From a bacterium (GTDB lineage Bacteria > UBA9089 > CG2-30-40-21 > SBAY01), in NCBI GenBank assembly GCA_040757115.1, contig JBFLYA010000018.1, positions 1 through 31,416 on the forward strand: 31,416 nucleotides of DNA, read 5' to 3'. Both the position numbers and the translations under genes were made by a program. The notes below the pieces were generated by a model. It saw only the letters and a list, made by a program, of their open reading frames with translations. It did no database searches and had not been told where the DNA came from. Positions 189-31,416 of this stretch are shown here, piece after piece. Position 1 is the first letter of the stretch; every line of letters begins with the position of its first letter.

Positions 189-649
189 GTAACTATTCAG
201 CATACCAAGCAAGTAGGAAGTAGGTAGTAGGTAAGTAGGAAAGGGATAAAGGATGTGCACGGTATTCCTCTTCTGGGGACAATGTCTCCCCTTTCCTACT
301 TTCCTACTCTCCTACTTTCAGGAAAATCCCCCATTTCACTGATGCATTACCTTATTTCTTCAAGAGATCCCTGGCTTATATTATAGGCATTTAACTTATT
401 CTTTATGCCTTGTTTCTTAAAACCTTCTGCAATATTTGCTGGAATAGAAACAGCCGCTCTGCACATCTGTTGCACCAATCCATATTTTTCTTCAGTGGGG
501 AAGTTTTTGGTTATTTCGTATATTCTTATCACTAAATGATGGCTTTTTTGCCATACTACAAGTTGTCTAAAATCATCTAACTTCTCATTCATTTTCTTTC
601 CCTTTCCTACTTCCCTACTCTCCTACTTTCCTACAGGGTGAATAGTTAC
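189..649. mobile_element. Inverted-repeat element with GTAACTATTCA ends carrying a four-helix-bundle gene
   Basis: The ends are GTAACTATTCA (189-199) and its exact reverse complement TGAATAGTTAC (639-649). Inside each end is a GTAGGAAGTAGG-type arm (about 208-246) or its complement (about 601-634). A further inverted arm at about 289-330, followed by a degenerate end TGATGCATTAC (340-350), suggests a smaller copy nested at the left. The cargo is a truncated minus-strand gene at 347-592. No transposase lies inside, so the element would be non-autonomous. The same 11-bp ends recur elsewhere in the window with different arms. Confidence 0.6.
347..592 (-). pseudogene. Four-helix-bundle (23S rRNA intervening-sequence type) protein, C-terminally truncated
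   Basis: The 81-residue product begins MNEKLDDFRQLVVWQKSHHL and contains VSIPANIAEGF and NISQGSLEEIR. These are hallmarks of the four-helix-bundle family (PF05635), first known from intervening sequences in 23S rRNA genes; the molecular role is unknown. Family members are usually about 115-125 residues, so the last helix is missing. The reading frame stops at TAA (347-349), exactly inside the degenerate element end at 340-350, so the insertion seems to supply the stop. The gene is cargo of the 189-649 element. It is probably non-functional, although a short bundle might still be made. Confidence 0.8.
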
Positions 650-1168
650 TCAGAATCCTATTTTTATGGTTCTTTCTGGTGGTGGAGCCATTAGAGCTTT
701 TATGGCATCAAAGATTATCTTAAATTGGGTGTCATACTTTCCAAATTGTGCATCATACTTTCTCTCCATGTCTTCAACTTTTCTTCTCAATTCCTCATGG
801 GAGCTTAATATTTTTCTCATCCTGGTAAATGCTCGCATGATTTGGATATTGACCAGGATAGCTCTTTCGCTGTTAAGGACAGATGACAGCATAGCTACGC
901 CTTGTTCTGTAAAGACATAGGGATTCGTAGGCGAATGCTTCATGATTTTGAACCTATCGCAATTTGCGATAAGTTCCTCTTTTTCCTCCTTGTTTAGCTG
1001 AAACATAAAATCTACAGGAAAGCGTTTAGCATTCCTTTTTACCTGTTCTCTCAACCTAATAGGTTTTACTTCATAAAGTTCTGCCAGGTCTCTATCCAAC
1101 ATCACCTTTTGGTCTCTTATTACAAAGATTTTAGTCTCTATCCTTTCTATCGGTATTAACTGATTCAT
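650..1168 (-). CDS. ORF6N-domain DNA-binding protein
   Basis: This 172-residue protein has an N-terminal ORF6N domain (PF10543) at about residues 8-95: IETKIFVIRDQKVMLDRDLA, then LYEVKPIRLREQVKRN and YVFTEQGVAMLSSVL. A basic, glutamate-rich coiled region follows (about 110-150), and the tail has the common MAPPPE...IGF ending. ORF6N proteins occur in phages and mobile regions and are thought to bind DNA. The gene looks full length. The stop TGA (650-652) directly abuts the outer end of the 189-649 element, so the element sits exactly at the 3' end. The start overlaps the end of an excisionase-like remnant read in another frame, and both probably use the minus-strand promoter at 1297-1325. Function beyond DNA binding is unknown. 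Confidence 0.85.
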   Translation of the reverse strand: MNQLIPIERIETKIFVIRDQKVMLDRDLAELYEVKPIRLREQVKRNAKRFPVDFMFQLNKEEKEELIANCDRFKIMKHSPTNPYVFTEQGVAMLSSVLNSERAILVNIQIMRAFTRMRKILSSHEELRRKVEDMERKYDAQFGKYDTQFKIIFDAIKALMAPPPERTIKIGF

Positions 1169-1283
1169 GGTAACCGCCTTCTTCTACATATTTTTGAAGT
1201 AATCTTCTTGAGAATTTCCATACCCGGTCAACCTGTTTAGCAGGTATTTCGCCTTTTTGGACATGCCTTCTTATTACTTTTGC
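1131..1283 (-). pseudogene. Remnant of an excisionase/MerR-type helix-turn-helix protein
   Basis: An open minus-strand stretch reads VIRRHVQKGEIPAKQVDRVW, then KFSRRLLQKYVEEGG, ending at TAA 1131-1133. The pattern R-x-V-x-x-G-x-I-P-A-x-x-V-x-x-x-W-x-F is the second half of the small HTH_17/excisionase DNA-binding domain. The first half and a start codon are missing: the frame is closed by TGA just upstream. A nearby ATG (1285-1287) lies in a different frame, so a single-base shift may have broken the gene. It overlaps the ORF6N start by 38 bp. It could also be a short active peptide, but truncation is more likely. Confidence 0.5.
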
Positions 1284-1296
1284 TCATTCTGAAGAT

Positions 1297-1325
1297 ATTC
1301 TACCAAAAATTTTATCCTATGTCAA
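1297..1325 (-). promoter_or_regulatory. Minus-strand sigma70-type promoter upstream of the excisionase remnant and ORF6N gene
   Basis: On the minus strand TTGACA (1320-1325), a 17-bp spacer and TAGAAT (1297-1302) form a near-consensus promoter. An ATG lies only nine bases past the -10 box, giving an almost leaderless transcript. A closely similar stretch recurs at 15337-15365. Confidence 0.65.
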
Positions 1326-1333
1326 CAAATTTC

Positions 1334-1362
1334 TTGCCATTTGTGAGGAAATTTGTTATAAT
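1334..1362 (+). promoter_or_regulatory. Sigma70-type promoter reading toward the FapA-like gene
   Basis: TTGCCA (1334-1339), a 17-bp spacer and TATAAT (1357-1362) are one base from consensus. The promoter is back to back with the minus-strand promoter at 1297-1325. Transcripts would pass through the palindrome at 1442-1574 before reaching the gene at 1615. Confidence 0.65.
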
Positions 1363-1441
1363 AATAGAGTTAGAGGTCAAATATCCCTTTTCTGACTTCT
1401 GGTTTCTGACCTCTGTCAACAATCTAATTATGTCCCACAAT

Positions 1442-1574
1442 TTTTACTGAACACTGTGAAGAGTGATAATTCACAATTGACAATTCACCATTCACCATTA
1501 TTAAGGAAATTTAGGGAAGAAATTGTGAATGGTGAATTGCGAATTGTGAATGAATGTAACATTGTTCAGTAAAA
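1442..1574. repeat. Palindromic element with TTTTACTGAACA ends
   Basis: TTTTACTGAACA (1442-1453) is matched by the exact inverse TGTTCAGTAAAA (1563-1574). The interior is also inverted: TTCACAATTGACAATTCACC on the left against GGTGAATTGCGAATTGTGAA on the right. The 133-bp unit could fold into one long hairpin in the leader of the downstream gene. It is a MITE-like repeat of a different type from the GTAAC-ended family. Confidence 0.6.
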
Positions 1575-1614
1575 CTTATGGGTAAAGATAAAGTCAACAA
1601 ATGGAGGGTTTTCA

Positions 1615-4600
1615 ATGGAGCAAGACCTTGCCTATCAATATGGAATACAAGATTGGGAACAGGAATTATTAGGAGACGAAGCTATCCCTGGCCAACTCTT
1701 AGCTGTTAAAAATCCACCTGCTCCTGGCAAGCCTGGTTTGACTGTTACCGGGGAAGAATTGACACCACAATTGGGCGAGGATATCCCTCTTATCCCCGGG
1801 AAAAACACATATCTTTCTGAAGATAAACAACGAATTTACTCAGCTGTATCAGGGAAGATTAGTTGGAGAGGACACCGTGTCGATGTAGAAGAAGAACTGC
1901 AAATTCAAGGAGATGTAGATGAGGATGTTGAGTTTGAAGGTCGGGTAAAGATTAGCGGAAATGTTGGTGAAAAATTCAAGGTTCACGCCGGGGGTGACAT
2001 TATTATTGGCGGTTTGGTGCAGTCAGCAGAAATTATCTCTGGCGGAAGCATTGAAATAGGTCAAGAGATTTCAAAAGCGACAATAACTGCTGAGGAAGAT
2101 ATTAAAGCCTCTGCGGTTAAAGAAGCCACCCTCGAGGCAAAAGGAAATATTCTCATTGACGGACCAATTCTTAGTAGTAAAGTAAATGGCTATCGAGTTA
2201 TCTGTTCTGGACGAAGAGGAATAATCACCGGCGGAACAACTTCTGCCAAAAAAGAAATATCTGCAATGGCAATTGGAAGTGAAAAGTCATCTGTTCAAAC
2301 AGAATTAAAGGTTGGTCAAGGAGGAAGACTTTCTGTTCAGGGAATTCTTTATCCCAAAGTAAAGATGCTGTTGGGAAGAAGAAGTATGATTGTTAAAAAA
2401 CCCGTTAAAAAAACCACCTATAAAATAGAAATGAGTGGAGTAACCGCGATAACTTATGAACCGCCTAAAATCGAACCAGTCGAAGAGATAACTTCAGAAA
2501 ATAAACCTCAGATAAAAACCGATTTCCCATCATCAGTAATTTTAGCCGCTTTCTCTGTAGAAGAAGGGAAAAGGCGGGGAGCAGAATTATTAGGATTTCT
2601 GCATACCGAAGTAGGCTACAAATTACTACCAACACCTTACTCAAAAGGTATTCTTCTGCGTGTATTTAAAGCCAATGTTATTGGTCCGTGGAGTGAGCGA
2701 TGGGATGAATTATACGGACCACCGGTTGATGGTTCATTTTCTTTTGATAATCGCTCTGATGGACTTTATATCACCATTATCCATCATCGCGGGGAAGGAA
2801 AACAGGTTACCCCGCAAGATATTCTGAAGAAATGTGAGGAGGATGGATTTGTAAATATTGAGCAGGAAAAAGTAGAAGAGGTGTGCACAAAAAGAACAAA
2901 AGAACCGGTAAAAATAGGACCACGACAATATATTAAAGGTACAGTCGAGGTGATTATTCCTGAAGATGAAAGTAAAGCTTCAATTTCAATTGTTCCGCCC
3001 AAATTAGGCGGGATGTTAATGAAAATAGATGAGGTGATGCAGGCTTTAAAGGGAAACGGTGTTGTCCTGACACTGGTTAAAAAAGAACGAATTATTGAGG
3101 CATTGAATAAGGCAGAATTTAATGTCTCAATTGATGTCGCCGAACACCAATTGCCATTGCCAGGCAAAAAGGCATATTTTAATTACCAACTTGGAGTTAA
3201 GGATGGGGTGGAGATAATAAATGATACTGCTATTCCAGGTCAATTATTAGCCGTGAAGTCACCGGCAACTTATGGAAAACCCGGAATGACTATTCGAGGG
3301 AAAGAAATTCCAGCATTATCTGGAGAGGACTTTGAACTTACCATCGGTAGAAATACCTTTTTGTCTGACAATAAGTTAAAACTATTTGCCTCTTCTTTTG
3401 GCCGTGTTGTCTGGACTGATAATCGGGCAGATGTTGAACAAATATTTGATTTTCAAGGAGATGTAGATGAAAATATTGAATTTGACGGGATTATAAATAT
3501 AAGTGGTTCACTGGGGAATAAATTTAAAGTTAATGCCTCAAGTGATGTTAATATTGGTGGTGGTATAAATGATGCCGAGATAATCTGTGGCGGAAATGTG
3601 GAGGTAAAACAGGATATTATTATCGGAAATATCAATGCTCAGGGAAATATTATTGCCAGGTCAGCTAAAAATTCTACATTAGAGACAAAAGGAAGTATCA
3701 TTCTCGAAGATGGACTCACTAACTGTACCATCAAGGCGGATAAAATCATCTGTAAAGGCAGAAGAGGATTTATTATTGGCGGCACTATCCAGGCACAAAA
3801 AGAAATAAATGCTAAGGCTATCGGCAGTGACCGAGTCTCAACTCAAACAACGATTACGGTTGCTCAGGGCGGTAAAATAAGCAGTTATGGTTATATATTC
3901 CCTAAAGTGAATATGATGCTGGGAAGAAGAAGTATGCTGGTTAAACGAGCCCTTAAACGACTTACGCTTAATGCTGGCTTATCGGGAATAACTACCACAG
4001 ACTATGAAGAACCTAAAATAGAGATTGCAAAAAAGATGCCTATTATCCAGGTTCAAGATACCACTAAAACCGAAACCGCTAAACCTAAATTACCACCATC
4101 TGTCGTTATTTACGCCTCTTCCCTGGAAGAAGGTAAAATAAAAGGAGCAGAATTATTAAATATCTCTCCGACAGATTTAGATGGGGAGATGATTCCAAAG
4201 GAACATTCTAAATTACCAGTATTACGAATTTTCCCAAAGGATTTATTTGGTGCATGGAAAAAGGAATGGGAAGAAATGTATGGCCCGGCAAGAGATGGTT
4301 CTTTTACCCTTGAAAATAAACCCGATGGTTTATATCTTCATCTTACACCGCATCGGGGGGCAGGTAAAGCGGTAAAACCAGAAGATATATTAGCCGAAAT
4401 TAAAAACCAGGAATTTACTGGAGTGGATTCCTCTAAAGTTGTAGAGGCTTGCAAATCAAAGGTAAAAACCACAACCAAAATCGGTATAATGCAATTGACT
4501 AAAGATTTCGGCGGCAAGGTTAAAGTAGATATTGGGGATAAGGGACTTAAGGCATTTTTTACGATAATCCCTCCAGACAGGGGAGCATTAATGCTTAAAA

Positions 4601-4779
4601 AAGAAGATGTTCTGAATGCCTTAAAAGAAAAAGGTGTAGTGGTTGGCATAAAGGAAGAGGCAATTATAAATGCCTTAAAGAATAGAGAGTTTAACAAATC
4701 TATCCTTGTTGCCGAGGCAATTCTACCAGAATTGGGTCAAAAGGCACAATTTACATACCAAATCGGTTCTACGAAATAA
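1615..4779 (+). CDS. Tandemly duplicated DUF342/FapA-like polymer-forming protein
   Basis: The 1054-residue protein has two copies of one module series. Each has a FapA-type repetitive beta-helix (about residues 1-285 and 515-810) with matching motifs such as AIPGQLLAVK, GDVDE(D/N)(V/I)EF and P-K-V-x-M-(L/M)-L-G-R-R-S-M. A Jag-N-like segment follows (SVEEGKRRGAELL; SLEEGKIKGAELL), then two FapA-N-like segments. FapA proteins (DUF342, PF03961) are linked to flagellar assembly and cell polarity, but their biochemistry is poorly known. GGAGGG five bases upstream fixes the start. The N-terminus begins at the end of a FapA-N unit (YQYGIQD), and the C-terminus stops just as a third beta-helix would begin (FTYQIGSTK). 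The series is therefore out of phase, or cut at both ends, compared with usual family members. No flagellar gene is adjacent. Confidence 0.8.
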   Translation: MEQDLAYQYGIQDWEQELLGDEAIPGQLLAVKNPPAPGKPGLTVTGEELTPQLGEDIPLIPGKNTYLSEDKQRIYSAVSGKISWRGHRVDVEEELQIQGDVDEDVEFEGRVKISGNVGEKFKVHAGGDIIIGGLVQSAEIISGGSIEIGQEISKATITAEEDIKASAVKEATLEAKGNILIDGPILSSKVNGYRVICSGRRGIITGGTTSAKKEISAMAIGSEKSSVQTELKVGQGGRLSVQGILYPKVKMLLGRRSMIVKKPVKKTTYKIEMSGVTAITYEPPKIEPVEEITSENKPQIKTDFPSSVILAAFSVEEGKRRGAELLGFLHTEVGYKLLPTPYSKGILLRVFKANVIGPWSERWDELYGPPVDGSFSFDNRSDGLYITIIHHRGEGKQVTPQDILKKCEEDGFVNIEQEKVEEVCTKRTKEPVKIGPRQYIKGTVEVIIPEDESKASISIVPPKLGGMLMKIDEVMQALKGNGVVLTLVKKERIIEALNKAEFNVSIDVAEHQLPLPGKKAYFNYQLGVKDGVEIINDTAIPGQLLAVKSPATYGKPGMTIRGKEIPALSGEDFELTIGRNTFLSDNKLKLFASSFGRVVWTDNRADVEQIFDFQGDVDENIEFDGIINISGSLGNKFKVNASSDVNIGGGINDAEIICGGNVEVKQDIIIGNINAQGNIIARSAKNSTLETKGSIILEDGLTNCTIKADKIICKGRRGFIIGGTIQAQKEINAKAIGSDRVSTQTTITVAQGGKISSYGYIFPKVNMMLGRRSMLVKRALKRLTLNAGLSGITTTDYEEPKIEIAKKMPIIQVQDTTKTETAKPKLPPSVVIYASSLEEGKIKGAELLNISPTDLDGEMIPKEHSKLPVLRIFPKDLFGAWKKEWEEMYGPARDGSFTLENKPDGLYLHLTPHRGAGKAVKPEDILAEIKNQEFTGVDSSKVVEACKSKVKTTTKIGIMQLTKDFGGKVKVDIGDKGLKAFFTIIPPDRGALMLKKEDVLNALKEKGVVVGIKEEAIINALKNREFNKSILVAEAILPELGQKAQFTYQIGSTK

Positions 4780-4786
4780 AAAATTA

Positions 4787-5028
4787 GTAACCGTTCAGAT
4801 AGTAATTCACCGCAGAGACGCAGAAGAACAGAGAAGACAGGGAAATAAATCAGATAACAGAAAAAATTAGGTAATACATAAGACATCAAAACCAAATTTG
4901 TTAATCAATCATGATATGTCGGTTCTTAAAAGCTTGCTTTGATGAAAATCAGAGATGGAATGAAGTGTATGGTAAATAGTTTTTTATTTTTTTCTCTGCG
5001 TCTCTGTGTCTCTGCGGTGAACGGTTAC
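4787..5028. mobile_element. Inverted-repeat element, copy A of the CCGCAGAGACGCAGAG subtype
   Basis: The ends are GTAACCGTTCA (4787-4797) and TGAACGGTTAC (5018-5028). The arms CCGCAGAGACGCAGA and CTCTGCGTCTCTGTGTCTC pair. AAAATTA borders both sides and may be a 7-bp target duplication, although the local sequence is AT-rich. The interior shares several blocks in order with the copy at 8519-8795, including AAATAAATCAGATAACAGAA and TTTGTTAATCAATC. It has no open reading frame of note. It starts eight bases past the stop of the FapA-like gene. Confidence 0.7.
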
Positions 5029-5116
5029 AAAATTACCTGGTAAGCCTTATAATAAAGATAATCTTTTTATCCGTGTTTTTTTACTTTCGATTTATCAGAG
5101 GAAGCAAAAAAAAAGA

Positions 5117-5145
5117 TTGACAAAAAGATGTTAGTTAAGTATAAT
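5117..5145 (+). promoter_or_regulatory. Consensus promoter for tRNA-Gly
   Basis: TTGACA (5117-5122), a 17-bp spacer and TATAAT (5140-5145) match the sigma70 consensus perfectly. The tRNA begins 12 bases after the -10 box, as expected for a strong stable-RNA promoter. Confidence 0.85.
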
Positions 5146-5156
5146 ATAAATGGTGT

Positions 5157-5232
5157 GCGGGAGTAACTCAGCTGGTAGAGTACGACCTTGCCAAGGTTGG
5201 AGTCGAGGGTTCGAATCCCTTCTCCCGCTCCA
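5157..5232 (+). tRNA. tRNA-Gly (anticodon GCC), CCA encoded
   Basis: The acceptor stem GCGGGAG pairs fully with CTCCCGC. The D loop holds CAGCTGGTAGAG, the anticodon stem CGACC/GGTTG encloses TTGCCAA with GCC at 5190-5192, and the T arm has GGTTCGAATCC. The discriminator base is U (5229), usual for bacterial glycine tRNAs, followed by an encoded CCA (5230-5232). It is a single gene with its own promoter. Confidence 0.95.
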
Positions 5233-5336
5233 AAATTTCTACCCGGGCAATTTATAGTGACTCATCAGTGTGTTCTCACCATGTTTTATTCAACCTTTGT
5301 AGTTTTATTCCTTTTCTGGTCTCATCTAATTTTCAT

Positions 5337-6314
5337 CTAATATCTAATTCGCGGGTCTAAATAGGCATAGAGAATATCTGCGATTAAATTGGACACAAGA
5401 ACGATAACAGAGAGTAAGAAAAAAGCCGCCTGGGCTAATGGATAATCGTGAGAGAGCACAGCTTCAATCAAAAGTTTCCCTAAACCAGGCCATGAAAACA
5501 CCTTTTCGGTCAGCACCCCACCATTCATCGAAAAGGCAAGACTTAATGCCAGGGCGGTGACAACAGGCAACATCGCATTTCGAGCGGCATGTTTATCACG
5601 GATTGTTTTCTCATCAAGTCCTTTTGCCCTGGCAGTAGTAATATAATCCTCCCGCAATGTTTCTAACATACTATTTCGCATAAGTAACATAGAGCCAGCA
5701 AAGAAAAGCAGTGTCAGAACAAAGAGAGGTAGGGCTAAATGGTATAAAACATCCAATATTTTCGGTAAGATTCCAATACTTTTATCTGACCAGATTTCTG
5801 GGGTTAGCATTCCGGCTAATGGAAACCAACTAAGTTTATAGGCAAATATCCATATTATTATCAATCCAAACCAGGGAATAAATATGGTATAGAAAAATAA
5901 TCCAAAGACAGTGATTCCTATTTCCATGCGACTACCTCTTTTCCACGCAAGATACTTTCCCAGTGGAAGCCCAATTAAGTAAGCTAAAATTGTGGCAGTA
6001 GTAAATAAAAGGATAGTGTTAGGTAATTTTTCCATCACAATATCAAAAACTGGTTCAGGATAATAAAATGAGTGGCCAAAATTTAAACTTAAGATATTCT
6101 TAAGATAATATCCATATTGAACGAATAATGGTTTATCTAAACCAAATTGTTCACGGATAAGTATCTTTGCCTCAGCGGGTATCTTTGGGTCTAAAATCAT
6201 TGACGCCGGGTCACCTGGCATTACCCGAAAGAGGATAAACAATAAAGTCATTATAATAAACAGGGTGATTATTATCTGATAAAGCCTTTTTATGATAAAT
6301 TTGCTTATATTCAT
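5337..6314 (-). CDS. Orphan ABC transporter permease, DppB/OppB family
   Basis: This 325-residue inner-membrane protein belongs to the dipeptide/oligopeptide/nickel permease family. It opens with ISKFIIKRLYQIIITLFIIM and LFRVMPGDPA, the typical first membrane segment followed by the PGDP motif. About six hydrophobic spans are visible. The cytoplasmic EAA loop that contacts the ATPase reads DYITTARAKGLDEKTIRDKH, followed by ARNAMLPVVT. The length (family about 305-340) and the C-terminus (YLDPRIRY) look complete. Family members normally sit with a DppC-type permease, two ATPases and a binding protein, and none is adjacent here. A promoter at 6327-6355 places transcription start only a few bases before the ATG. 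The substrate cannot be predicted. Confidence 0.9.
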   Translation of the reverse strand: MNISKFIIKRLYQIIITLFIIMTLLFILFRVMPGDPASMILDPKIPAEAKILIREQFGLDKPLFVQYGYYLKNILSLNFGHSFYYPEPVFDIVMEKLPNTILLFTTATILAYLIGLPLGKYLAWKRGSRMEIGITVFGLFFYTIFIPWFGLIIIWIFAYKLSWFPLAGMLTPEIWSDKSIGILPKILDVLYHLALPLFVLTLLFFAGSMLLMRNSMLETLREDYITTARAKGLDEKTIRDKHAARNAMLPVVTALALSLAFSMNGGVLTEKVFSWPGLGKLLIEAVLSHDYPLAQAAFFLLSVIVLVSNLIADILYAYLDPRIRY

Positions 6315-6326
6315 ATTTTCAAAGAA

Positions 6327-6355
6327 ATTTTATCATAGATTTGGGATTATGTCAA
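6327..6355 (-). promoter_or_regulatory. Minus-strand promoter of the ABC permease gene
   Basis: On the minus strand TTGACA (6350-6355), a 17-bp spacer and TAAAAT (6327-6332) lie 12 bases ahead of the ATG at 6314. The mRNA leader would be only about five bases and no Shine-Dalgarno sequence fits. Confidence 0.65.
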
Positions 6356-6384
6356 CAAAAAGTCCTGGTAACCAAGCAGTTCTT

Positions 6385-6767
6385 GTACCTGTTTAGCGTA
6401 TTCCAAATTGCGTTGATTTGAGGCGTAACTCTTTGTTAAACAATAGGATACCGCGGTGCGAAATATTCCACAAGGAGTTTAATGCAAATATCAAAATGTA
6501 AAAATCAAAATTACAAAGCAAAATGCAAAAATACTTGTAAGGCAATAAAAAAAATCAAATATTAAATATTAAAAATCAAAAATAAGAATAAAAGAATTCC
6601 TTAATTTTGATATTTGCTCTTTGATTTTTGATATGATATTTGATATGTCATTTTGCATTTTAATATTTAATTTTTGATTTTGTATTACACAACTTGTTGT
6701 GTTTGAAGTGGTTTCGCACTAAGTCAGTACCATTCATTTGTGCTCTCTGACCACGCTAAACAGGTAC
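6385..6767. repeat. Large nested inverted-repeat element upstream of glnS
   Basis: GTACCTGTTTAGCG (6385-6398) is exactly inverted as CGCTAAACAGGTAC (6754-6767). Inside lie a second pair (GTGCGAAA near 6454, TTTCGCAC near 6712) and a third, AT-rich pair (ATGTAAAAATCAAAATTAC and AAAGCAAAATGCAAAAAT against ATTTTGCATTTT and TTTTTGATTTTG). No gene is seen in this 383-bp stretch. The concentric layout suggests elements inserted into elements. It differs from the GTAAC-ended family. Confidence 0.6.
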
Positions 6768-6803
6768 CAATTCTTAGCATTGCTGACCGAATTGCTACTT
6801 TGA

Positions 6804-6832
6804 TTGACATTTAATTGAAACTATGCTATAAT
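6804..6832 (+). promoter_or_regulatory. Consensus promoter of glnS
   Basis: TTGACA (6804-6809), a 17-bp spacer and TATAAT (6827-6832) match consensus fully. The expected start near 6839 leaves a leader of about 12 bases before the ATG at 6852, with only a weak AAGGT as ribosome binding site. Confidence 0.8.
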
Positions 6833-6851
6833 TGACATAAGGTAAGTAATT

Positions 6852-8522
6852 ATGACCACAAATAAATCTGATTTTATTCGAGAGATTATTGAAAAAGATT
6901 TGGAGATAAATAAATATGGTGGTAAAGTTGTAACTCGATTTCCACCAGAACCAAACGGTTATCTTCATATTGGACATGCCAAGGCTATTTGTCTTAATTT
7001 TGGGCTGGCGGCTCAATATGGAGGTAGGTGTCACCTGCGGTTTGATGACACTAATCCGGTTAAAGAAGAACAGAAATTCATCGATGCCATCAAAAAGGAT
7101 ATTCAATGGCTTGGTTTCAAATGGGGTAAGGATGAGTATTACGCCTCTGATTACTTTGAGAAATTATATGAATATGCGGTGCTGTTAATTAAAAAAGGTA
7201 AGGCGTATGTCTGTGATTTAAGTCCTGAGGAAATCAGGGAATATCGAGGCACATTAACTAAACCAGGAAAGAATAGCCCTTATCGTAACCGTTGTGTTGA
7301 AGAAAATCTGGAACTGTTTCAACGGATGCGTTGTGGTGAATTTAAAGATGGTCATTGCACCCTGCGAGCGAAAATTGATATGTCGTCTGGGAATTTGAAC
7401 ATGCGTGACCCGGTGATGTATCGGATTCTTCATGTCCAACATCCCCGCACTTCCCAGAAATGGTGTATCTATCCCACTTATGATTTCGCTCATGGTCAAT
7501 CAGATTCTATTGAAGGAATTACTCATTCTATTTGCACACTGGAATTTGAAGACCATCGACCATTGTATGATTGGTTTCTTGATGAATTAAATATCCATCA
7601 TTCCCAGCAAATTGAATTTGCTCGTTTAAATCTTAGTTATACTGTGATGAGTAAGCGGAAACTACTTGAACTGGTAGAAGGAAAATATGTTACGGGTTGG
7701 GATGACCCACGAATGCCAACAATTGCAGGATTGCGAAGGCGAGGCTATACAAAAGAAGCAATACTCAATTTCTGTGAACGCATTGGCGTAGCCAAAGGTA
7801 ATAGCATGGTTGATATATCGCTGTTGGAACATTGTATTCGTGAAGATTTGAATAAATGTGCACCTCGTGTTATGGCTGTTTTACAACCACTTCGAGTAGT
7901 CATAACTAACTATCCACAAGACAAGGTAGAAGAATTGGATGCTGAAAATAATCCTGAGGATGCCAGTATGGGTTCTCGTAAAATTCCTTTTTCTCAAGTG
8001 CTCTATATTGAAGAAGATGATTTTCGAGAAAATCCACCAAAGGAATTTTTTCGATTATCTCCGGGGCGTGAAGTTCGTTTGAAACATGCCTATTATATCA
8101 AATGTGTAGATGTGATTAAAGATGTAAGCGGTAAAATAGTTGAGTTACACGCAGTTTATGACCCAGAAACGCATGGTGGGTGGTCACAAGACAAACGGAA
8201 GGTTATGGGCACATTACATTGGGTTTCGGCGGCTCACAGTATTGACGCTGAAGTGCGACTGTATGACCGTTTATTCCTGAAATCCAATCCAGATGAAACA
8301 GAAGATGTTGATTTCAAAACGAATTTAAACCCAAATTCATTACAAATATTAACTGGCTGTAAAGTTGAACCTACTTTATTTGATGCTCCACCCGAAAATC
8401 ATTATCAGTTTTTAAGGCAGGGATATTTCTGCGTTGACGCTGATTCTTCCAATGAAAAAATGATATTCAATCGCACTGTCTCGCTGCGAGATTCCTGGGC
8501 TAAAATTGAAAAAAAACTGTAA
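6852..8522 (+). CDS. glnS: Glutaminyl-tRNA synthetase
   Basis: This cytoplasmic class I enzyme charges tRNA-Gln with glutamine using ATP. The 556-residue length matches bacterial GlnRS (about 550-560). The nucleotide-binding HIGH motif is in [16 protein letters not shown] (HIGH at 39-42) and the KMSKS equivalent is VMSKR (265-269). [33 protein letters not shown] and the C-terminal beta-barrel ending [14 protein letters not shown] are typical of GlnRS rather than GluRS. A complete GlnRS implies that Gln-tRNA does not depend only on the amidotransferase route. The stop TAA (8520-8522) lies inside the left end (GTAACCCTTCA) of the element at 8519-8795, so the insertion supplies the stop without clear loss of conserved C-terminus. 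Confidence 0.97.
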
Positions 8523-8795
8523 CCCTTCAGATGGTAATTTACCGCAGAGACGCAGAGGAACAGAGAAGACATAGAAATAAATCAGATAACAGAAAAGATT
8601 ATTGGTGCAGACATGGAAACACATAGGGCATGGTGACCAGATTTGTTAATCAATCCCTGATTTTCATCAGGGCAAGTTTAATGTTGGTGTACTCAAGAGC
8701 TTGCCTTGAGGAAAAAGAGGGATGGATTTAAGCGTATCGTCCATAGATTTTAATTTTTTCCTCTGCGTCTCTGTGTCTCTGCGGTGAACGGTTAC
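8519..8795. mobile_element. Inverted-repeat element, copy B, between two convergent genes
   Basis: The ends are GTAACCCTTCA (8519-8529) and TGAACGGTTAC (8785-8795), with arms CCGCAGAGACGCAGAGG and CCTCTGCGTCTCTGTGTCTC. Interior blocks match copy A at 4787-5028 in order. Two local hairpins are visible: CCCTGA/TCAGGG (8655-8672) and CTCAAG/CTTGAG (8692-8710). Both flanking convergent genes end at a TAA within the element ends. The long palindrome could act as a bidirectional terminator. No coding capacity is seen. Confidence 0.75.
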
Positions 8796-9892
8796 CATAA
8801 CTTCTTATAAAGTCCGATTAATCTTTCTTTCTCTAATTCCCAGTTATACCTTTCTTCAACTGCCTTTCTGCCACTTTTACCCATTTGTTTTGCCTCATCT
8901 GGATGCTCCATAAGGTATTCAATAGCCTGAGCGATCTCTCTGGGATTTAATGGGTTCACACAAATACCACAATGATTACCCTCAATTATTTCCTTCCATA
9001 AAGGGAAATCAGAGGCAATAACAGGAAGCCCACAAGACAGGTATTCAAAGAGTTTATTAGGCAGAGCATTTATATGATTTGGCTCTGGCAAAAAGCACAC
9101 AATGCCAACCTCGGCTTGAGCCATTTTTGCGGGAATATCCTGTGGTCTAACCCAGCCCTGATATTCTACCTTTTCAAAGCCTTTCAGACTTCTGACCTGC
9201 TCTTCATAGTTAGCAGGATAAAATTTACCACAGAGAATAAGTTTTACCTCTTTCTGGATATACTCTAATGACTGAATGACCTGCGAAATTCCACGAATTT
9301 CTACCAGACCACCGACATAAATAAGGTTAAAAATGGTGCTATTATCGGTTTTATTCAATAGCGAAAAATTAGATAATACTGGAAAATTTCGCACTGCTAC
9401 AATCCTTTTATGGTAAGAGAAATTATTAGATATATCATCTGTTGCTGTGACAATAGCATCAAAAGTCCTTGAGATAACCTTCTCTACTTTGTTAACCAGC
9501 CAGGCAATAGAGTATCTTGTCCATTCAGGGAGGTATGGTTTGGAAAGTATTTGTTTTGCATAATCTTCATGGACATCGTAAATAATTTTAGCCTTAGTCA
9601 TCAATTTCAACAGTAGCCCAACAAACAACAATTCCGGGTCATGGAAGTGATAAACATTGGCTTTTTGTTTCAGTGCTTTAATCAAACACCTGAAGGTAAG
9701 CAAGCCCATCCTTTCCAGTCTGTTTTTTGGTTTTGGTAAGGGGATAATTTTTATCCCGTCAACAGTTTCTTCTCTATCGCTTTGAGCAATGAGGATGACA
9801 CCATATCCCACCTTCGCCAGACTTTTTGCCTCTTTATGAAATATCCGGACATCAAAAGGTTGATGGACACTTGAAAGTAGACAGACTTTCAT
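8792..9892 (-). CDS. GT4-family glycosyltransferase
   Basis: The likely product of 366 residues is a cytoplasmic or membrane-associated GT-B glycosyltransferase for a surface glycan. The N-terminal domain shows KVCLLSSVHQPFDVRIFHKE and VYHFHDPELLFVG. The C-terminal GT4 donor-binding domain shows IYVGGLVEIRGI, YQGWVRPQDIP and PNHINALPNKLFEYLSCGLP followed by VIASDFPLW. I place the start at ATG 9892 with GGAGG four bases upstream; an adjacent ATG at 9895 is possible. The frame stays open further upstream, but that extension runs through the element at 9905-10172. The stop TAA (8792-8794) lies in the end of the element at 8519-8795. The gene is thus flanked tightly by two element ends. Donor and acceptor are unknown. 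Confidence 0.88.
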   Translation of the reverse strand: MKVCLLSSVHQPFDVRIFHKEAKSLAKVGYGVILIAQSDREETVDGIKIIPLPKPKNRLERMGLLTFRCLIKALKQKANVYHFHDPELLFVGLLLKLMTKAKIIYDVHEDYAKQILSKPYLPEWTRYSIAWLVNKVEKVISRTFDAIVTATDDISNNFSYHKRIVAVRNFPVLSNFSLLNKTDNSTIFNLIYVGGLVEIRGISQVIQSLEYIQKEVKLILCGKFYPANYEEQVRSLKGFEKVEYQGWVRPQDIPAKMAQAEVGIVCFLPEPNHINALPNKLFEYLSCGLPVIASDFPLWKEIIEGNHCGICVNPLNPREIAQAIEYLMEHPDEAKQMGKSGRKAVEERYNWELEKERLIGLYKKLW

Positions 9893-9904
9893 CATTCCTC
9901 CAAT

Positions 9905-10172
9905 GTAACTATTCACCACGAAGAGCACGAAGGGCAAAGAGATGTTACAGAACAAATCTCTTTATGCCTTTATACTCAACAGACAAAGGAGACTGTAGTT
10001 TGAATGATATCCCTAAAAGATCCATCTCTCTGGACACGCATTGTTCGTAAGTGGATTCAAGCAAACCTGGCCCAAGAGTTCGATGCACCGCTATAGCGCA
10101 TCCAATGACTCTATTCGATAATTCATCAAATTTCACTTCGTGCTCTCCGTGCCCTTCGTGGTGAATAGTTAC
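9905..10172. mobile_element. Inverted-repeat element carrying a GxxExxY gene
   Basis: The ends GTAACTATTCA (9905-9915) and TGAATAGTTAC (10162-10172) are exact inverses. They continue into paired arms CACCACGAAGAGCACGAAGG on the left and GCTCTCCGTGCCCTTCGTGG on the right. The cargo is a minus-strand gene that starts at the right end and reads inward. The left end lies ten bases upstream of the glycosyltransferase start region. Confidence 0.7.
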
Positions 10173-10175
10173 CAT
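9945..10175 (-). pseudogene. GxxExxY protein with an internal deletion
   Basis: The 76-residue frame opens MVTIHHEGHGEHEV, which is translated from the element end and arm. It continues KFDELSNRVIGCAIAVHRTL, then GPGLLESTYEQC, the G-x-x-E-x-x-Y signature (PF13366, PDDEXK-like nuclease fold). It then goes directly from PLSVEYKG to IKRFVL and stops. In intact homologues, about 125 residues long, IKRFVL is the C-terminal end after a segment with the nuclease-like D...ExK residues. About 50 residues are therefore missing in frame. A likely cause is recombination between two Gly-Ile-Lys codon runs, an inference because the lost copy is not visible. The protein is probably inactive as a nuclease. 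The AGGAGGG upstream is too far away to be a normal ribosome binding site. Confidence 0.8.
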
Positions 10176-10238
10176 ATTTGTAGTTAATTGAGTGGTTAAT
10201 TTTTTTATACCCTCCTGTTCTTTTTTATTAAGATATTT

Positions 10239-10480
10239 GTAACCGTTCAGGGATATAGCCACAGAGTCACAGAGAATACAGAGGAAATATATAACTACGA
10301 ATGAACACGAATAATAAAAAGATTTGTAGTGCGAGGCTTTAGCCTCGCTTCTGGCAAGCAGGAAAGCGAACCTAAAGGTTCGCACTACATTTATCGAATG
10401 TCACAGGTTAATCCGTGTCCTTATGTGGCTAATTTCTCTAATTCTCTGTGAACTCTGTGCCTCTGTGGCTGAACGGTTAC
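10239..10480. mobile_element. Inverted-repeat element, CCACAGAGTCACAGAG subtype
   Basis: The ends GTAACCGTTCA (10239-10249) and TGAACGGTTAC (10470-10480) are exact inverses, with arms near GCCACAGAGTCACAGAGAA and CTCTGTGCCTCTGTGGC. A further inner pair (ACGAATGAACACGAAT against AATCCGTGTCC) and a nested 65-bp palindrome at 10325-10389 fill the middle. No gene is seen. It starts 66 bp from the neighbouring element. Confidence 0.7.
10325..10389. repeat. Nested palindrome with two internal hairpins
   Basis: TGTAGTGCGA (10325-10334) and TCGCACTACA (10380-10389) are exact inverses. Each side is itself a hairpin: GCGAGGCTTTAGCCTCGC (10331-10348) and GCGAACCTAAAGGTTCGC (10366-10383). The unit resembles a REP-type doublet inserted in the larger element. 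Confidence 0.65.
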
Positions 10481-15371: not shown

Positions 15372-15531
15372 GTTACCACGAATTAAACGAATTTTACGAA
15401 TGAATACTAATTATTAGAATTAATGTAACCGTTCAGGTAGTCTGGTGTCTAGGTGTCTATGTGTCTGGGTTACATAGACTACCAGACACTTAGACACATT
15501 TTTATTCGTCCAATTCGTGAAATTCGTGGTA
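15372..15531. repeat. Nested palindromic repeat between the two divergent sugar operons
   Basis: CCACGAATT (15376-15384) with following ACGAAT repeats is inverted as ATTCGT repeats ending AATTCGTGG (15521-15529). The inner part holds GTAACCGTTCAGGTAG (15425-15440) and GTGTCTA-type repeats facing AGACTACCAGACAC near 15475. The GTAACCGTTCA end has only a degenerate partner (CTGGGTTAC, near 15464-15472). It separates the divergent promoters at 15337-15365 and 15583-15611. Confidence 0.55.
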
Positions 15532-24307: not shown

Positions 24308-24522
24308 GTAAGCGTTCATCTACTTAAAAAAATAACTGTAAAATGTAAAATGAGCAATTAAAAATTTAAAAGTCAATTCTGTGTTCTGGCAGTAAGAATT
24401 GATTTCCCAATCATCTTGCATAATTCTTCAGCCTCATCAAGTATATTTTGTAACCATCCTTTCATTTTACATTGCCCATTTTACATTATTATTAGATATC
24501 TTGCAATGACCTGAACGCTTAC
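24308..24522. mobile_element. Inverted-repeat element with GTAAGCGTTCA ends holding a four-helix-bundle remnant
   Basis: The ends GTAAGCGTTCA (24308-24318) and TGAACGCTTAC (24512-24522) are exact inverses. They share the family pattern but carry a matched C-to-G/G-to-C change at the fifth position, which suggests both ends are kept alike. The inner arms are AAAATGTAAAATGAGCAAT and ATTGCCCATTTTACATT. The middle encodes the end of a four-helix-bundle protein on the minus strand. Confidence 0.7.
24373..24465 (-). pseudogene. C-terminal remnant of a four-helix-bundle protein
   Basis: The 30-codon frame reads MKGWLQNILDEAEELCKMIG, then KSILTARTQN. L-x-E-A-x-E-L followed by a short helix and T-A-R is the usual last helix of PF05635 proteins. 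The first three quarters of the gene are gone. It sits between the arms of the 24308-24522 element, in the same relation as the four-helix-bundle cargo at 347-592, which lacks exactly this end. Confidence 0.6.
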
Positions 24523-24795: not shown

Positions 24796-24806
24796 GTAAC
24801 TGTTCA
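24796..24806 (+). repeat. Solo element end GTAACTGTTCA
   Basis: A single left-type end of the GTAAC...TTCA family with no clear inverse partner within the next few hundred bases. It lies in the gap between the small gene ending 24768 and the flippase gene, and may be the residue of a decayed copy. Confidence 0.4.
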
Positions 24807-27713: not shown

Positions 27714-27911
27714 ATATAGTAGTTATTAACGAAAATTTCTCATAGAACAGATATAGCAACAGGGTTGATGGTTGATAGTTTATAGTTGATAGTTTATAGT
27801 TTCATAGACTATCAACCATCAACCATCAACAATACTAATGTGAAGTTTTGGTTAATACTTACTATACTTATCGGCATTTCTAAGTAAAATTTTGAATAAT
27901 AACTGCTATAT
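27714..27911. repeat. Nested inverted repeat in the 27.6-27.97 kb gap
   Basis: An imperfect arm at 27714-27738 (ATATAGTAGTTATTAAC...) is inverted at 27886-27911 (...AATAATAACTGCTATAT). Inside is an exact hairpin, GTTGATGGTTGATAGT (27764-27779) against ACTATCAACCATCAAC (27808-27823). No gene is seen between 27641 and 27969. Confidence 0.55.
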
Positions 27912-27954: not shown

Positions 27955-27992
27955 TGAACGATTACCTTTTTACCTACTACCTGAATGGTTAC
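27955..27992 (-). repeat. Two right-type element ends in tandem
   Basis: TGAACGATTAC (27955-27965) and TGAATGGTTAC (27982-27992) are two family ends 27 bp apart, and CTCTGTGG precedes the first as in other arms. A left partner is not obvious. The outer end is translated as the C-terminal tail of the gene at 27970-29307. Doubled ends also occur at the left of the copies at 4787 and 8519. Confidence 0.5.
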
Positions 27993-30027: not shown

Positions 30028-31035
30028 TTAAACCTTTATTACCGTGAGTTGTCCCACAACTTTTTTTTTACCAGCACTCTCGTTATTCCCAGGACTCATT
30101 CCTGCCCACGAGGATAAATGTGCCTCTGTAGGAAATTTACTCATATCTACGCCTATCTCGGCTATTATGGAGGCGGCACTATCTCCTTTTACTCCAGGTA
30201 TGGTCTGCAGTAATTCATACTCTTTCCTATACTTATCTATCTTCTTGTCTATCTCCTCTTCTATTCTTTCTACTATCTCCTCTATCCCCCTAATATGTCT
30301 TAATGACTCCTTTATCATAAATTTATGATGCTCCTCAAATTTCCCAAATAACGCTTCTTTTATCACTTCTTTTTTCCCTTGTAGTCTCCCTCTGGCTAAA
30401 TCGCTCATCTCCTCTATAGTTAATTTCCCCTTCATTAATTCCTCTATAATTTCACTCCCACTTACTCCAAATGTCTCTGTTACTACTGACGATAACTTTA
30501 TATTCGCATCCTCTAATACCCTTTGTATCCTATTCTTCTCCGCTGAAATAGATTGAACAAGCTTCCTCCTATACCTCGTCAAATCCCTTAACTCACGAAT
30601 ATCCCGCGGTGGGATAAAACTCCCTCTTACTAAACCATTCCTTAATAACTTACACAACCATTCAGCATCACAAACATCGGTCTTCCGACCAGGAACATAC
30701 TTTATATGTCGTGCATTTACCAGTATAACCTCAAAATCCTCCTCTAATATGTTAAATACAGGCTTCCAATATACCCCTGTGCTTTCCATGGCTACATGAG
30801 TAACCCCCTTGCTCTTAAGCCATTCCCTTAACTTCAGCAAATCGTTTGTAAATGTCCTGTAACTTCGCACCTCCTTCGCAATACCAATTCCATCAAACAT
30901 GCAGTTAAACTTTCCTTGTGCACATCGTAACTGCTCATCATCAAGTGGCAATCTGCACCTTACAGCTTCAACAGCCACATAATATCTAAAGAACCGTTTT
31001 TTATGGCGAAGGACCTCATGGATAACAAACTGCAC
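30028..31035 (-). pseudogene. IS110-family transposase, N-terminal and middle part, broken at both ends
   Basis: FTNDLLKLREWLKSKGVTHV, AMESTGVYWKPVFNIL, NARHIKYVPGRKTDVCDAEW and RYRRKLVQSISAEKNRIQRV are the DEDD (RuvC-like, PF01548) half of IS110 transposases. TIPGVKGDSAASIIAEIG and LSSWAGMSPGNNESAGKKK begin the PF02371 half. After an A9 run (30061-30069, minus strand) the frame leaves the family sequence and stops, and the correct continuation is in the -1 frame. At the N-terminus, the first 45 or so residues do not resemble the usual start with Asp in G-x-D. They overlap the 3' end of the IS66-like gene, so the 5' end was probably replaced. Likely inactive unless frameshifting restores a product. 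Confidence 0.82.
30047..30069 (-). other. A9 slippery run followed by a stem-loop at the transposase frame break
   Basis: On the minus strand nine A residues (30069-30061) are followed at once by AGTTGTGGGACAACT (30061-30047), a six-base-pair stem with a three-base loop. Slipping back by one base joins the two transposase frames exactly. It may be a simple indel in a homopolymer. Confidence 0.5.
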
Positions 31036-31416
31036 TTCTTTGCCCGATCATCTCTGCTAAGGATGGCAGCCTGTATTCTCCAGAAAGTCTATCGTATAAA
31101 TACTTACGAAAATTCACTCCAAGTTTTCGACATGTATCTTTAATTGACAAAAATATCTCCCAACTCCGTGTCCCTTCCTCACTTCTGGTCGGTATGATGA
31201 TCTTGCGTTTTACAACATATTCCCTTACAGCTAATTCTGCTGGATTGTTGTGCAATGGCACTTCGGGATGATCTAAGACCACCAACAATCCTGATTTCCT
31301 TTCCATTGTTTTCGCTATGCATTCATCAAGTGTAACATATCCTGTTTTTACTGAAAAGAGTTTATCAAATGCCTCATTTAATCGTTTTTTCTCTTTCTCA
31401 TCTGGATTGGATTTAT
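31016..31416 (-). CDS. IS66-like transposase, C-terminal part, cut by the window edge
   Basis: The open frame runs in from beyond the window and contains VVLDHPEVPLHNNPAELAVR, then EYVVKRKIIIPTRSEEGTRS and KDTCRKLGVNFRKYLYDRLS. The N-N-P-A-E-x-A-x-R and T-R-S-x-x-G patterns are typical of the DDE domain end in IS66-type transposases, with the last catalytic Glu in NNPAE. The C-terminus SLAEMIGQRSAVCYP ends over the start of the IS110 fragment, so two insertion sequences meet here. The upstream part cannot be judged. Confidence 0.72.
   Translation of the reverse strand, partial: KSNPDEKEKKRLNEAFDKLFSVKTGYVTLDECIAKTMERKSGLLVVLDHPEVPLHNNPAELAVREYVVKRKIIIPTRSEEGTRSWEIFLSIKDTCRKLGVNFRKYLYDRLSGEYRLPSLAEMIGQRSAVCYP

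Follow-up and report, generated by a model that had tools for sequence, protein, structure and literature searches.

Insertion sequences of the IS66 family have ends that start with GTAAGCG and are accompanied by 8-bp repeats (PMC11946415), and ISDge4, from the ISBst12 group, combines the ends GTGACTACTCAGCA/GTAACTGCTCAGCA with an 8-bp repeat and a single transposase gene (PMC12898284). Prokaryotic Miniature Inverted-repeat Transposable Elements (MITEs), according to a passage of a 2024 review, occur in tens to hundreds of copies (PMC10969869). In regard to these systems, we analysed a 31,416-nucleotide stretch of bacterial DNA (contig JBFLYA010000018.1, assembly GCA_040757115.1; hereafter the window), which is one entire contig of a genome of 4.32 Mb in 462 contigs, and a family of short elements within it that have the 11-bp end consensus GTAA[C/G]NNTTCA at each side and differ in their interiors. 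We consider the copies to be miniature non-autonomous IS66-family transposons whose interiors are altered by nesting, deletion and, apparently, short-homology replacement, with a probability of about 0.82.

The first-pass annotation, made from the sequence of the window, had listed five paired copies and a sixth at 24308-24522, and all six pairs were recovered. The window holds 13 matches to the end pattern GTAACNNTTCA compared with 0.27 expected in shuffles, and its genome 1,101 compared with 33 for a reversed control pattern. This is far above chance, and the possibility raised by the annotation itself, that such pairs are no more frequent than in shuffled sequence, can be dismissed. End sites are unevenly distributed across the phylum, with 1,110 in a sister species (G001), 724 in another genome of the phylum (G008), 328 in G005, only 33 in the 2.6 Mb of a relative from the same order (G004) and several others near the control; the excess is present in most of the phylum, and most genomes outside it are near the control. 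Analyses of pairs were based on stretches amounting to 1.13 Mb of the window's own genome, 0.78 Mb of G001 and 0.40 Mb of G008. Elements delimited by inward-facing pairs have a median length of 242 bp; the copies span 0.1-0.5 kb, hold no transposase gene, are conserved over about 11 bp at their ends and enclose many unrelated interiors.

The end type, the target duplications and the empty sites are demonstrated for these IS66-type elements. An exact 8-bp direct repeat flanks 34 of the 93 inward-facing pairs in the own genome, 32 of 69 in the sister species and 16 of 34 in G008, compared with 0.4-0.5 such repeats for permuted flanks, and repeats of neighbouring lengths are at or near background. 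Comparison of filled and empty sites between the sister species, proposed in the annotation together with the prospect that no empty sites would exist, revealed four clean ones. Three elements of the own genome (L087 4646-4923, L087 17570-17863 and L133 397-633) are absent from G001, where exactly one copy of the respective 8-mer is present, and the fourth element is found in G001 (L167 6876-7313), with a T-run leaving two bases of slack.

Furthermore, a transposase gene with the same ends on either side, which the annotation recommended looking for, was found in the own genome and in relatives by a PF03050 profile search for IS66 transposase genes. In the own genome, L053 (1,563 bp) holds an IS66 gene between ends that are identical over their first 14 bp, GTAACCGTTCAGGT, and its reading frame is broken by two stops. 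L052 of G004 (1,505 bp) has an open frame of 476 codons between the same ends, whose chance pairing around this gene is very unlikely because that genome has so few end sites. In G014, an IS66 gene with a broken frame lies between GTAACTATTCAGCA at both ends (L054), and in G005 another one lies between GTAACTACTCAGGT and GTAACTACTCAGGA (L051, 1,737 bp). A partial CTA-type copy in the own genome (L075) shares 93-96% identity with the G014 element, and many G008 elements start with GTAACCGTTCAGGTATAGCT, which equals one L053 end over 20 bp. The copies thus combine features of the IS66 family, namely GTAA ends (which the pairs have by construction), the 8-bp duplication and an IS66 gene between the same ends, with those of MITEs, being short, numerous, devoid of transposase and bounded by inverted ends that are found also in relatives. 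An IS66 transposase, rather than a recombinase that swaps interiors, is the most likely enzyme to recognize the ends. A single-gene, ISBst12-like transposase acting in trans would recognize the 11-bp end on each side and move the element, leaving an 8-bp target duplication, and interiors would be free to change because little beyond the end must be kept.

The 162 pairs of the two sister species represent ten multi-copy interior families and singletons, and copies with 8-bp duplications are found in nine of the ten. The arms are inverted and built of tandem short repeats, many of them following a CAC-NNAG-NN theme that recurs every 7-10 bp. Both ends are identical in 54 of 93 elements, compared with 30 expected, an excess due mainly to ends being specific to each family. 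In family 2 the two ends remain different (CCG/GCG in 16 of 19), so that copying of one end from the other via the hairpin is ruled out as a general rule. In G008, a bare shell of 33 bp (L361 15348-15380) consists of little beyond both ends and has an 8-bp duplication.

Arms of the same kind are found also in other transposon shells. An unanchored scan for inverted ends with 8-bp duplications in the same genomes detected shells starting with CGACCTGTG and GGTGGTGTCT and, in G008, with GGGACGGTTCA; matches between shells that are due to one element nested in another were left out of the count of shared arms. The GTGTAAGAAA-GGGGATAAGG arm type occurs in GTAAC family 2, in a CGACCTGTG shell (96% over 50 bp) and in a GGTGGTGTCT shell (91% over 43 bp). 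CACGAAG arms stand behind GTAACTATTCA in the own genome and behind CGACCTGTATGGTTAG in G008, with the duplications AATTTTAT and CAAGATTT, and a CGACCTGTG shell with a duplication in G001 (L165 11415-11633) has CACAGAG-type arms and, by eye, a GxxExxY-like fragment. The tandem-repeat hairpin arms behave as modules, with the same arms being placed between GTAAC, CGACCTGTG and GGTGGTGTCT ends.

Combinations of end and arm are also spread beyond the genus. The sequence GTAACNNTTCAGCCACNGANNNACAC, an end followed by a CACAGAT-type arm, was found in at least 120 stretches from Desulfobacterales, other deltaproteobacterial metagenome-assembled genomes, Methylobacter, Armatimonadetes and one contig of Methanophagales (archaeal), with the taxa given as binned; a confinement of such pairs to this genus is thereby ruled out. 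Among the matches listed, 8-bp duplications flank 5 of 21 GTAACNNTTCAGCCACNGANNNACAC pairs. CACGAAG arms without GTAAC ends are present in several other phyla. Of two Methylobacter and three Desulfobacterales genomes, three contain IS66 genes, and exact GTAACTATTCA ends were not found at any of these genes; a search of viral contigs with GTAACTATTCACCACGAAG gave zero matches.

In regard to the origin of the interiors, the own genome has 26 matches to PF05635 (four-helix bundle) and 65 to PF13366 (GxxExxY), and full-length genes of both kinds sit between arms of many types, with GTAAC or CGACCTGTG ends enclosing some of these genes. Two full-length four-helix-bundle genes lie inside GTAAC ends; among the window copies only that at 189-649 has such a gene, in truncated form. 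The cargo described in the annotation is thus present as four-helix-bundle and GxxExxY sequences, yet both genes of the window are incomplete, with partial Pfam matches. Since short elements contain gene fragments and full-length genes are found elsewhere, the short elements look like deletion derivatives of gene-carrying versions. Judging from these fragments, internal deletion of larger four-helix-bundle- or GxxExxY-carrying versions would be one route by which interiors change. Nested insertion of other mini-transposons is another, and was seen at a site shared by the sister species, where the G001 copy contains a second element that starts with GTAACTATTTACCC and is flanked by an 8-bp duplication of its own, AATCTCTT; at another shared site the copy of the own genome is longer by an internal stretch. 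The annotation's idea of one repeatedly invaded ancestor is therefore right only in part, namely as far as invasion is concerned.

A third route could be replacement through short homologies, for which one case was dissected. The GGTGGTGTCT element at L094 14786-14985 is 98% and 97% identical in its first 59 and last 39 bp to ordinary GGTGGTGTCT elements (those of 356 and 422 bp were compared), and its middle matches arms of the family-2 (GTAAC) type. Sequence common to both sources is found at either junction, AAAGGG at the left one and TACAC at the right one. The own genome has 18 copies and G001 seven that extend over 198 or more of the 200 bp, and since four of seven checked copies have exact 8-bp duplications, the chimera moves as a family. 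A new combination of end and arm can amplify as a family of its own, as exemplified by this one chimera.

Several observations weigh against the proposed assignment and mechanism. An intact transposase with these ends was not found in the own genome, L053 having two stops, and G008, with its 724 end sites, gave zero PF03050 matches. Target duplications were not seen at the complete IS66 copies, and published IS66 ends of 20-30 bp are longer than the 11 bp conserved here (PMC11946415). The junctions of the chimera lie in or next to purine-rich repeats and belong to the one replacement dissected, so that replacement of the L094 middle through microhomology, as read from the overlaps, is likely but not proven. 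Finally, 59 of the 93 own-genome pairs have no 8-bp duplication. The 8-bp flanks of a pair match exactly or not at all, and pairs with one mismatch are not in surplus, which argues that slow decay is not the cause of the missing duplications. Copies of this kind probably arise via deletion adjoining an inserted element or via recombination between (neighbouring) copies. At L040 3509-3748, the sister species has 241 bp of unrelated, apparently coding sequence instead of the element, and a test for swapped duplications gave 11 partner matches in the own genome compared with 0-2 in controls, several of which are AT-rich 8-mers or come from nested copies of a single locus.

Other explanations of the same structures have to be considered. 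As the elements fold as strong hairpins and avoid genes (at 60 bp outside, 33-37% lie in long open reading frames, compared with 71-75% for the genome), they could be taken for fixed regulatory or terminator hairpins of the host that are not mobile. This is an extremely remote prospect, contradicted by the 8-bp duplications, the empty sites and the nested insertions, which refute a fixed host feature as the sole explanation. A dedicated recombinase of integron- or cassette-like kind, recognizing the 11-bp ends and exchanging interiors in place, would account for the same ends being found around at least ten interiors, and for a few sites where the sister species hold different contents between the same flanks. 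We regard it as very improbable, because the elements enter new sites as a whole, together with 8-bp duplications, of the two shared sites aligned in detail one differs by a nested insertion and the other by an internal indel, and the replacement that was dissected concerns a differently ended element with short shared sequence at its junctions. Such a recombinase, which the annotation had put forward as one of two possibilities, is accordingly retained only in the part of an end-recognizing enzyme, in line with the IS66 genes and the 8-bp duplications, and its dedicated swapping of interiors is not supported, in view of the 5-6 bp shared at both junctions of the dissected replacement.

Alternatively, all copies could go back to one ancestor, the arms of which became different through concerted evolution of their tandem repeats, with the ends held by selection and with no exchange of modules. 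The theme and period common to many arms would fit such a history, as repeats can homogenise quickly. This course of events nevertheless appears unlikely, since the same arms stand behind the unrelated ends CGACCTGTG and GGTGGTGTCT in the same genomes (43-50 bp at 90-96%), the GTAGGAA and AAATGTAAAATG arms lie outside the theme, and the CACGAAG arms of other phyla are devoid of GTAAC ends. A further and more tentative reading, which we find possible but would not favour, is that the tandem-repeat hairpin arms, whether or not they enclose a four-helix-bundle or GxxExxY gene, form a mobile module class of their own, entering shells of unrelated transposon families and being carried across phyla by the transposase of each shell, with the protein or the hairpin being active in capture.

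The individual copies of the window illustrate this diversity. The element at 189-649 has GTAACTATTCA at both ends (CTA class) and GTAGGAA-repeat arms, and encloses a truncated gene for a four-helix-bundle, 23S rRNA IVP-like protein on the minus strand (347-592; PF05635, E=2.7e-28, positions 1-73 of 106); no target duplication is found at its ends, and in G001 an unrelated sequence of 109 bp lies between the same flanks. The second CTA-class element with GTAACTATTCA at both ends, at 9905-10172, has CACGAAG arms and a fragment of a GxxExxY (PDDEXK_3) gene on the minus strand (9963-10124; positions 2-55 of 117 of PF13366). CGCAGAG arms are present in two elements. That at 4787-5028, with GTAACCGTTCA at both ends, has a copy at the same place in G001 and, as the sole window copy with a near-complete target duplication, is flanked by the 7-bp direct repeat AAAATTA. 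The other, at 8519-8795 with ends GTAACCCTTCA/GTAACCGTTCA, gives in-frame TAA stops from both ends to its convergent neighbours (reading frame ends at 8522 and 8792), a glutamyl/glutaminyl-tRNA synthetase gene and a glycosyltransferase-like gene. Since the end reads GTAAC, insertion at the 3′ edge of a gene can provide a TAA stop; stops are supplied in this way to open reading frames of at least 100 codons by 9 of 186 ends in the own genome and 4 of 138 in G001, counts for which no chance expectation was calculated. The element at 10239-10480, with GTAACCGTTCA at both ends and CACAGAG arms, forms a strong hairpin (RNA fold -100 kcal/mol, z -9.8) and has many copies at 90-98% identity in both sister species. 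The element at 24308-24522 has GTAAGCGTTCA at both ends and AAATGTAAAATG arms; within it, the minus strand at 24380-24460 resembles by eye the C-terminal end of an IVP protein, and a Pfam search gave no match for this stretch.

Solitary ends are present as well: GTAACTGTTCA at 24796-24806 on the plus strand, two right-hand ends on the minus strand at 27955-27965 and 27982-27992, and GTAACCGTTCA at 15425-15435 on the plus strand, which belongs to a shortened element inside a CCACGAATT-armed hairpin (about 15376-15530) that is broken up by this fragment. The C-terminal fragment of an IS66 transposase gene lies at the contig end on the minus strand (31016-31306; PF03050, E=2.9e-6), a fragment that need not be the source of these ends, and an IS110 transposase gene immediately adjoins it (30028-31306 for both). 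Other repeats of the window are a hairpin element at about 1444-1575 with outer ends TTTTACTGAACA and TGTTCAGTAAAA and AATTCACA-type arms, an element at about 6365-6770 with TTGTACCTGTTTAGCGT and ACGCTAAACAGGTACCAA ends, AAAATGCAAAAAT-type arms and copies of 87-99% identity elsewhere in the genome, and a hairpin at about 27764-27831 with GTTGATGGTTGATAGTTTATAG arms and without GTAAC ends, an IVP gene in L380 being found between similar arms. A protein of 1,054 amino acids encoded at 1615-4779 contains FapA regions repeatedly, with two stretches matching PF03961 and three matching PF20250.

Compared with the described systems, the elements share with the IS66/ISBst12 group (ISDge4, ISBst12) the GTAA-starting ends and the 8-bp repeat, and IS66-type genes with matching ends are present in the phylum, but they differ by their small size, the lack of a transposase, the roughly 11-bp ends and the many unrelated interiors. 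Like prokaryotic MITEs such as ERIC, MITEAba12 and Sulfolobus SM, they are short and non-autonomous, with inverted ends and target duplications; here, in contrast, one end type encloses many interior families, and interiors are common to several end types. The largest MITE copy number in the review passage is 711, which the 1,101 end sites exceed, ends and copies being different counts; the same passage describes dozens of MITE families in one species as not observed in prokaryotes and makes no mention of IS66 (PMC10969869). The BrickBuilt MITE of Porphyromonas gingivalis is likewise a bacterial MITE with a minisatellite, and its abstract does not mention interchange of interiors between end types (PMC4596501). 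Among open-licence papers, the closest reported parallel that we located is the coral CMITE group, in which the interior is conserved more strongly from family to family than the ends are (PMC2872659). CMITE is eukaryotic and related to piggyBac, whereas here the end types are bacterial and of several kinds, and ends and interiors both recombine. Exchange at a fixed site without duplication, as in integron-like cassettes, was not observed, the insertions being scattered, with 8-bp duplications and empty sites. As in 23S rRNA intervening-sequence (IVP) and GxxExxY hairpin elements, a four-helix-bundle or GxxExxY gene lies between inverted arms, but the gene copies of the window are truncated and ride between transposon ends. 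Foldback elements, such as FB and Galileo of Drosophila, have long inverted arms of short tandem repeats. Inverted tandem-repeat arms are found here as well, but the transposases differ, and the arms stand behind three end types and not within one lineage.

The genome shows bacterial mini-transposons being put together from parts: at about 1,100 sites a single end type encloses at least ten interiors, some of which are also found behind other end types, and the close sister species makes the assembly steps readable from empty, filled, nested and replaced sites. This also offers a testable account of how hairpin-flanked four-helix-bundle and GxxExxY genes spread, as some of them ride between the ends of IS66-type or other transposons. 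Within the range of known systems, the elements are MITEs with interchangeable foldback-like interiors common to several end types, notable for their copy number, modularity and spread.

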